From: Sedimenticola sp.
GTDB taxonomy: Bacteria > Pseudomonadota > Gammaproteobacteria > Chromatiales > Chromatiaceae
Direction of reading: 5' to 3'
Assembly: GCA_027008705.1 (NCBI GenBank)
Contig: JALVEB010000197.1
Location: 1-60,673, forward strand
DNA length: 60,673 bases
The stretch's first letter is position 1. The number at the start of each line of letters is the position of its first letter. Both the position numbers and the translations under genes were made by a program. This document shows positions 8,414 to 11,908 of this stretch, piece after piece. The notes beneath the pieces were generated by a model. That model was not told where the DNA came from and made no database searches. It was given only the letters and a program-made list of their open reading frames with translations.

Positions 8414-9196
8414 TCAGTCTTCCCTCAGCCAGCCGATCTCGCGGGCAGTGGTGGCGTTGACCACGACCTGCCCCAGGTGTTTGGGCATCTCCGAGCGATC
8501 CGGCCCCAGCGCGATCCGTCCGGCCATGATCTCGGCGCGACGCTGTGGATACAACGGCTTGCGCTCCGGCTCGGCATAGCCTTCCGGGTAGATCGGATTG
8601 CCCTTTTCGTCGTAGCGGTCCCGGGCGCCCACGGTGTGCATGATTTCGTGCGTGATGACGATGTTGTTCTGCGCGCTCTGACGCTTCGTCGCAAACGCGT
8701 TGACGACCCCGAGCAGCCCCTTTTGCAGCCCGAGAGAATGCGCCAGCGCAACCCCCTTGCGGCCCTGTTGGTACAGCACGAAAACCCGTATCCGGCGCGT
8801 GTTGGAGCGATTGTCCGGGGTGTATTTCCAGGCCCAGTAACGGATCCGCAGGCTCCATAGCAGGCGGGCGGGGAGGCTGGCGCCGGGATGCGGCGGCAAC
8901 GGGACATCCAGTACCGGACCCAGGGTAACGCGGAGTGGATCCGGCTCGACCACTCCCCAGCGATGAGCCTCGCGTCGGACGAATCTGGCAATCGGCTGGA
9001 AGGTTCGCGTCGAAAGCGAACGGATATAGGCGGCGGTGCGCGGGTCGCCGTCGGCATCGATCGGATAGATCACTACCGGCAGCGGGTCGCTCCAGCTGGT
9101 TGTCAACAGGCGCTGGCTGAGGGTGTAATCGATGGCCCAGACCAGCAGCCCGATCAGCAGGCCGATGCGCAGCAGGCGGAACGGGGTGATTTTCAT
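8414..9196 (-). CDS. Membrane-anchored protein with metzincin-type zinc motif (predicted metalloprotease)
   Basis: N-terminal TM segment; VITHEIMHTVGARD fits HExxHxxGxxD; downstream EIMAG could be a Met-turn. Confidence 0.6.
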   Translation of the reverse strand: MKITPFRLLRIGLLIGLLVWAIDYTLSQRLLTTSWSDPLPVVIYPIDADGDPRTAAYIRSLSTRTFQPIARFVRREAHRWGVVEPDPLRVTLGPVLDVPLPPHPGASLPARLLWSLRIRYWAWKYTPDNRSNTRRIRVFVLYQQGRKGVALAHSLGLQKGLLGVVNAFATKRQSAQNNIVITHEIMHTVGARDRYDEKGNPIYPEGYAEPERKPLYPQRRAEIMAGRIALGPDRSEMPKHLGQVVVNATTAREIGWLRED

Positions 9197-9197
9197 G

Positions 9198-9599
9198 CTA
9201 TACCAGACCCAGGTGGGTTGCCTCGTCTTCGTCGAGGATGCGTTGTTGGGCCAGCCGCCAGTGACCGCCTTCGCGGCGCAGCAGCATCTCGACCGCTTGC
9301 CCGGTTCGTTCTCCGTCGTGCGTCTCGATCGCTTCGATTACGCTGAACAGGATATCCCGATCGGTGGCGGTGCGGATGCGGGGCTCGCTGTAGTGGATCG
9401 CGCGGACCAGGCGTTGCGGAAACTCGTGGGCGCATTGCCGCCGCCAATCGTCGTATTCCAGTACTTCGAAACCCGGGATGCCGAACAGTTGCAGGTCCGG
9501 CGAGATCAGGGCCATGTGGGCTTCGAGATCCCCCGCGACCGCGGTGGAGGCCAGTCGTTGCAGCCAGTGCGTGACGGTTTCGCTAGCGGAGTGGGACAT
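9198..9599 (-). CDS. SnoaL/NTF2-like fold protein (hypothetical)
   Basis: ~130 aa, WLQRLASTAVAGDLEAHMALISPDLQLFGIPGFEVLEYDDWRRQ...RIRTATDRDILFSVIEAIETHDGERTGQAVEMLLRREGGHWRLAQQRI: typical NTF2-like layout. Confidence 0.55.
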   Translation of the reverse strand: MSHSASETVTHWLQRLASTAVAGDLEAHMALISPDLQLFGIPGFEVLEYDDWRRQCAHEFPQRLVRAIHYSEPRIRTATDRDILFSVIEAIETHDGERTGQAVEMLLRREGGHWRLAQQRILDEDEATHLGLV

Positions 9600-9838
9600 G
9601 GCGCATTCCTGAGTTACGGGAAGTCTGCAAGCTATGCGGCAAGCGTGGCGCTGTCAAGACGGAAAACGCCCGGCTCTCCCGTTTATGCACAAAGGCCGGG
9701 AAGCCCGTCAGGATCGTTTGTAAACGCTCCGTAATTTATCGTCAAATCGCTTATCGTTATGCCAATAGATTGATTTCAAGCTGAAAAGCTTGCTGTCAGG
9801 TTGTTTTCCCGAGACACGGGAGGTGGGTGGATTCCGGG

Positions 9839-9882
9839 TTATTCTGTTGTTATCCAGGCGTTTATCCACCAAGTTATCCACA
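9839..9882 (+). promoter_or_regulatory. Array of DnaA-box-like 9-mers (TTATTCTGT, TTATCCAGG, TTATCCACC, TTATCCACA)
   Basis: Starts at 9839, 9850, 9862, 9874 (11-12 bp phasing, same orientation); the last matches TTATNCACA; another consensus match TTATGCACA at 9683-9691. Confidence 0.5.
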
Positions 9883-10084
9883 GTTTGTCACGGGAGGCGG
9901 GAAAAGCGCTTCCGGCCTGCCCGTTTGGCCGACTCTCCGTTGGCGTTTTGCGTATTGCCCATTTCAAGTCATTGATCAGAGCGAGTTCTGGGCAGTCTGG
10001 CAGACGCTCGTCGAGGCATTCGGGTCGAATCAGTAAACCCTGATATAATGGCCGGCTTTGCTTCTTGGTAAACCGGATCCGCTC

Positions 10085-11908
<1,824 letters not shown>

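Follow-up and report, generated by a model that had tools for sequence, protein, structure and literature searches.

The window analyzed here is a stretch of 60,673 nucleotides from the draft genome of a Sedimenticola species (G000; 2.9 Mb in 244 contigs). It contains, at positions 10085–11908 on the plus strand, the typA gene for the translational GTPase TypA/BipA, identified by a match to the NCBIfam profile TIGR01394 with a score of 946 bits. The divergent upstream neighbor, at 9198–9599 on the minus strand, encodes a SnoaL/DUF4440-like protein of the NTF2 fold (Pfam PF13474 and PF14534). The adjacent gene at 8414–9196 on the minus strand encodes a 260-aa protein with a zinc-peptidase-like HEIMHTVG motif and no match in Pfam or NCBIfam; it is kept next to typA in several relatives (loci L180, L191, L201, and L247). 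The hexamer TATAAT at 10044–10049 on the plus strand is the likely −10 element of typA and is retained in the alignment of upstream regions from relatives. No promoter was flagged in this region by a scan with both consensus hexamers, and a scan of positions 9580–10120 for sigma-70 promoters and terminators yielded no score exceeding those of shuffled sequences.

The first-pass annotation reported in this intergenic region an array of four tandem DnaA boxes at steps of 11, 12, and 12 bp and a fifth box farther upstream. All five 9-mers are present at the positions and in the orientation given there. Relative to the DnaA box consensus TTWTNCACA, used for mismatch counts, two of them are exact: the distal box TTATGCACA (9683–9691, plus strand), 179 bp upstream of the core described below, and TTATCCACA (9874–9882, plus strand). 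These are the sole exact matches in the 60.7-kb window. The remaining three, all on the plus strand, have one mismatch (TTATCCACC, 9862–9870), two mismatches (TTATCCAGG, 9850–9858), and three mismatches (TTATTCTGT, 9839–9847). When one mismatch is permitted, the window contains 27 DnaA-box sites against 18.3 expected, and hence single weak boxes carry little meaning. An AT-rich stretch had also been noted between the distal box and the array, and indeed positions 9751–9800 are 62% AT compared with 34% for the window.

The comparison covered the 700-bp region preceding typA in 28 sequences from the family, taken by lineage as Sedimenticolaceae-like, and in 74 sequences from elsewhere in Gammaproteobacteria; the relatives referred to here are Sedimenticola-like Chromatiales. 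As a refutation test, close relatives were checked for the element upstream of typA, and it proved to be conserved there. In the relatives it consists of a box on the plus strand, a gap of 3 bp, TTATCCACA on the plus strand, a gap of 5 bp, and a box on the minus strand. Upstream of these, an IHF consensus lies at about 98 bp and one more box at about 178 bp. The gap pair 3/5 was observed, with up to three mismatches, in 16 of the 28 family upstream regions, a set that holds closely related records, so that the counts are not numbers of independent events. Any second gap other than 5 bp gave no matches in the family upstream regions, and other first gaps gave at most six. Outside the family, none of the 74 typA upstream regions matched the three-box pattern at the gaps tried.

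At the DNA site DARS2 of Escherichia coli, the replication initiator DnaA is recharged; to our knowledge, most work on DARS elements has been done in E. coli. The element of the relatives has the three boxes of a DARS at the DARS spacing, boxes III and II being in the same orientation and boxes II and I head to head. In the window, TTATCCACC aligns with box III both in the family core and in E. coli DARS1 and DARS2, and TTATCCACA, 3 bp downstream, is box II, which is near-invariant in the family. The slot of the inverted box I (9888–9896) is TGTGNATAA-like in most relatives, reads TGTGGGTAA in a relative of the same genus, and reads TCACGGGAG in the window. Since TCACGGGAG replaces TGTGNATAA in this third slot, the inverted box I is gone from the window copy, which retains boxes III and II with their 3-bp gap and has no head-to-head pair of boxes II and I; this loss is seen in one draft assembly, where a sequence error is possible. 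The 9-mers at 9839 and 9850 are unconserved in the alignment of relatives. As they are both weak and unconserved, the proposed four-box array comes down to one conserved, 12-bp-phased pair (9862/9874) and two look-alikes, and the 12-bp phasing is kept in the family for the box III/II pair only. Thus, the element is a real, conserved feature whose box count was over-read.

The sites around the core are conserved as well. The IHF consensus site of the window, AATCAATCTATTG (9763–9775, minus strand), matches WATCAANNNNTTR with no mismatches, and a second IHF-like site with one mismatch, GATCAATGACTTG, lies downstream of the core (9965–9977, minus strand). Among 17 family loci, the window included, the IHF consensus with up to one mismatch occurs between −101 and −96 from the core in 13, the chance expectation for one such slot being about 0.01 per locus. 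All 17 loci have such a consensus on one or the other side of the core, and 7 of them have an IHF-like site at +99 to +104. A same-strand DnaA box at −176 to −179 is present in 13 of the 17. Another block, near −66 to −47 from the core, is conserved in the relatives and contains G-N13-C with an AT-rich center near −66. It is a weak candidate for a Fis site; at the corresponding position in the window (9795–9809, plus strand) the block is weak.

The E. coli regions between rppH and mutH and between bioD and uvrB, which we take to be DARS2 and DARS1, respectively, contain one core each, with the same two gaps and orientations as the family element. The rppH-mutH core is TTCTTCACA-ACT-CTATCCACA-GAAAA-GGTGAATAA, with three mismatches to the pattern, and the bioD-uvrB core is TAATACACA-TGG-TTATCCACA-GGAAT-AGTGGATAA, with two. 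The similarity to DARS2 extends beyond the three boxes. In both, IHF-like sites in the same orientation lie upstream of the core, at −87 and −71 in E. coli and at about −98 in the family, an offset of approximately 11–27 bp; both also have a consensus box near −180, which in DARS2 is at −185 and on the opposite strand. The two IHF-like sites found in DARS2 are 3 bp apart, in agreement with the published spacing of IBS1-2 (PMC4245941). The differences from DARS2 are the neighbor genes, the absence of box I from the window copy, and the family counterpart of FBS2-3, which is a weak candidate only. DARS1 also has other neighbor genes, and its accessory regions are minimal (PMC8682772), in contrast to the fixed IHF site and distal box of the family.

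The three-box core is not confined to typA. It was found in 77 of 96 family genomes (up to three mismatches), in 182 of 274 genomes sampled across the class (up to two mismatches), and in 107 of 249 genomes drawn from the phylum, this class and others together (up to two mismatches). The pattern read backwards had no match in any genome listed, and near-copies of E. coli DARS1 (e.g., TAATACACAAGGTTATCCACAGGAATAGTGGATAA), recovered in one family by the phylum scan, served as a positive control. When the flanking genes of 68 core loci were grouped, three recurrent contexts appeared: (i) upstream of priA, at 21 loci from several families, (ii) upstream of typA, at 14 loci, only in the family of the window, and (iii) next to a ycgN-family gene, at 8 loci. 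In a direct check of 30 genomes, half of them picked for having a core somewhere, the core was located just upstream of priA in 16 (up to three mismatches), and 2 more had a weaker core there. In the complete relative G005, the three cores are located at 2.994 Mb (priA), 3.315 Mb (typA), and 3.489 Mb (ycgN-like). None of rppH, mutH, ptsP, bioD, uvrB, and ybhK was found at the core loci examined, a shared neighborhood being a secondary criterion, and the priA region of E. coli contains no three-box core. Because the typA, priA, and ycgN neighborhoods differ from those in which DARS1 and DARS2 lie in E. coli, the likeness is no demonstration of common descent.

According to a review that gives no mapping, sequences similar to DARS are present in many proteobacteria (PMC10380432). 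The scans provide a concrete map of cores, which occur in two thirds of the class genomes sampled and also in some of the phylum's other classes. The gene downstream of the core is priA in repeated cases; in one family it is typA, and there the IHF site is fixed. Such a map makes DnaA reactivation testable in distant species. In the open-access literature, which the search covered, we found no publication on DARS at priA or typA.

The genome of the window contains no core within three mismatches and no match to an exact double TTATCCACA. It has two cores at four mismatches, both with good box II/I pairs: one on contig C63 near 9,781, adjoining an mfd-like gene, and one on contig C224 near 43,583, flanked by a ycgN-family gene on one side and ogt/xerD-like genes on the other (mfd, ogt, and xerD were named by eye). 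Upstream of priA in the same genome, the priA strand carries a box III-II pair, TTCCTCACA-GAG-TTATCCACA, with no box I, as read by eye.

Based on these comparisons, the typA site is probably an ancestral typA-linked DARS2-like element that has decayed in this species to a DnaA/IHF-binding site by loss of box I; we assign this reading a probability of about 0.7. With the defining inverted box missing, the local copy is to be classed as a degenerate DARS-type element; the type is known, but we found no prior description of it in this lineage in the open-access literature. The earlier suggestion of a datA- or DARS-like site fits the version of the relatives, with its DARS boxes, IHF site, and distal box.

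Boxes I and II of DARS face each other (PMC8682772), and in the E. coli sites this head-to-head arrangement is essential, box III being stimulatory (PMC10380432). By analogy, the three boxes of the relatives, with III and II head to tail and II and I head to head, would be occupied by ADP-DnaA, IHF would bend the DNA about 98 bp upstream, and the distal DnaA box would assist; ADP would then leave DnaA, which could be reloaded with ATP for the next initiation. In the species of the window, binding of DnaA and IHF is predicted to be retained. Without box I, reactivation by this copy should be abolished or much reduced, so that little or none would be left and the site would at most hold DnaA; reactivation in this genome would probably be provided by the near-complete cores on C63 (mfd) and C224 (ycgN-family). 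That the IHF site, box pair, and distal box have been kept hints at a continuing role for the window copy. Whatever is said here of protein binding and biochemical activity, for this element and its relatives alike, we infer from sequence. Natural losses of box I offer a test of the head-to-head model.

The main rival explanation is a DnaA-titrating or datA-like inactivating site, where tandem boxes and IHF would hold ATP-DnaA and either sequester it or promote hydrolysis of the ATP. datA is a non-coding cluster of DnaA boxes with an IHF site (PMC4245941), and the analogy is one of description, not of sequence. The window copy would suit such a role with its head-to-tail pair, two weak boxes, exact IHF consensus, and distal box, and this could be its real present function after the loss of box I. 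However, the feature conserved in the relatives is the head-to-head pair of boxes II and I, which is the mark of DARS (PMC10380432), and the extra tandem boxes are weak and unconserved. We therefore consider this explanation unlikely for the element. A related and more doubtful scenario is that the lineage converts DARS-type reactivators into DnaA-holding sites, losing box I and keeping the remainder of the element (boxes II and III, IHF site, and distal box). It is suggested by the absence of box I both at typA and at the box III-II pair upstream of priA; if true, it would mean that a positive element of replication control has turned, by natural change, into a negative one.

A DnaA-regulated typA promoter, where upstream DnaA would repress or activate the gene, is a distinctly poorer explanation than the decayed DARS2-like element. 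The element does lie within the intergenic region upstream of typA. However, the distance from the core to typA in the relatives ranges from about 134 to 436 bp, the same core is found upstream of priA and next to ycgN-like genes, and it is absent from the 74 typA upstream regions of other families. Given the variable distance and the presence of the core at other genes, a promoter role is very unlikely, and the proposal is left unsupported. An even smaller likelihood attaches to the idea that DnaA-like 9-mers cluster here by chance. Of the four tandem boxes reported, two are indeed weak and unconserved, but within the family the box pair, the distal box, and the IHF site keep their positions, and hence the core of the observation is not due to chance.

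A relocated or secondary replication origin had also been proposed. Because the genome of the window is a draft, this was examined in G005, which belongs to another genus and has a complete chromosome of 3,928,944 bp. Sampled GC skew in G005 changes sign near 2.81 and 0.86 Mb, and finer sampling places the skew minimum at 2.818 Mb. The dnaA gene is at 2.812 Mb and gidA/mnmG at 2.836 Mb, and a dif site with two mismatches is at 0.870 Mb, opposite the skew minimum. The typA core of G005, at 3,315,469, lies about 0.5 Mb (12.7% of the chromosome) away from this minimum, and the skew around the core is steadily positive. The typA element resembles oriC in its DnaA boxes, AT-rich stretch, and IHF site, but in this complete relative it neither lies at the skew minimum nor adjoins dnaA and gidA. 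The positions of the skew, dif, dnaA, and gidA in G005 thus lead us to reject an origin at typA, the least probable of all the explanations considered.

Several minor observations concern cores and dnaA in other genomes. In the complete genomes G005, G114, G227, and G129, the priA-linked core is origin-proximal, approximately 4–8% of the chromosome from dnaA, and a second core is often about a third of the chromosome away; because genome sizes were rounded, these distances are only a lead. Two genomes, G045 (G045:C1) and G399, carry eight and seven core-like matches, respectively. Most of those in G045 share a variant that resembles TTACCCACA-AGG-TTATCCACA-N5-CGGTGGATAA and may represent a repeat family rather than DARS sites. 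G021, scored as 99% complete, has no match to the DnaA domain and no typA-linked core. In G008, also 99% complete, the DnaA domain is in pieces across reading frames with a TAG inside (G008:C1:997626-998110; L129, L130), which reflects either a broken dnaA or a sequence error. In the genus of the window, about 1.6 to 2 kb separate priA from dnaA (G000:C31 25596-29828, L114; G002:C4 6190-10916), whereas in G005 the two genes are 182 kb apart.
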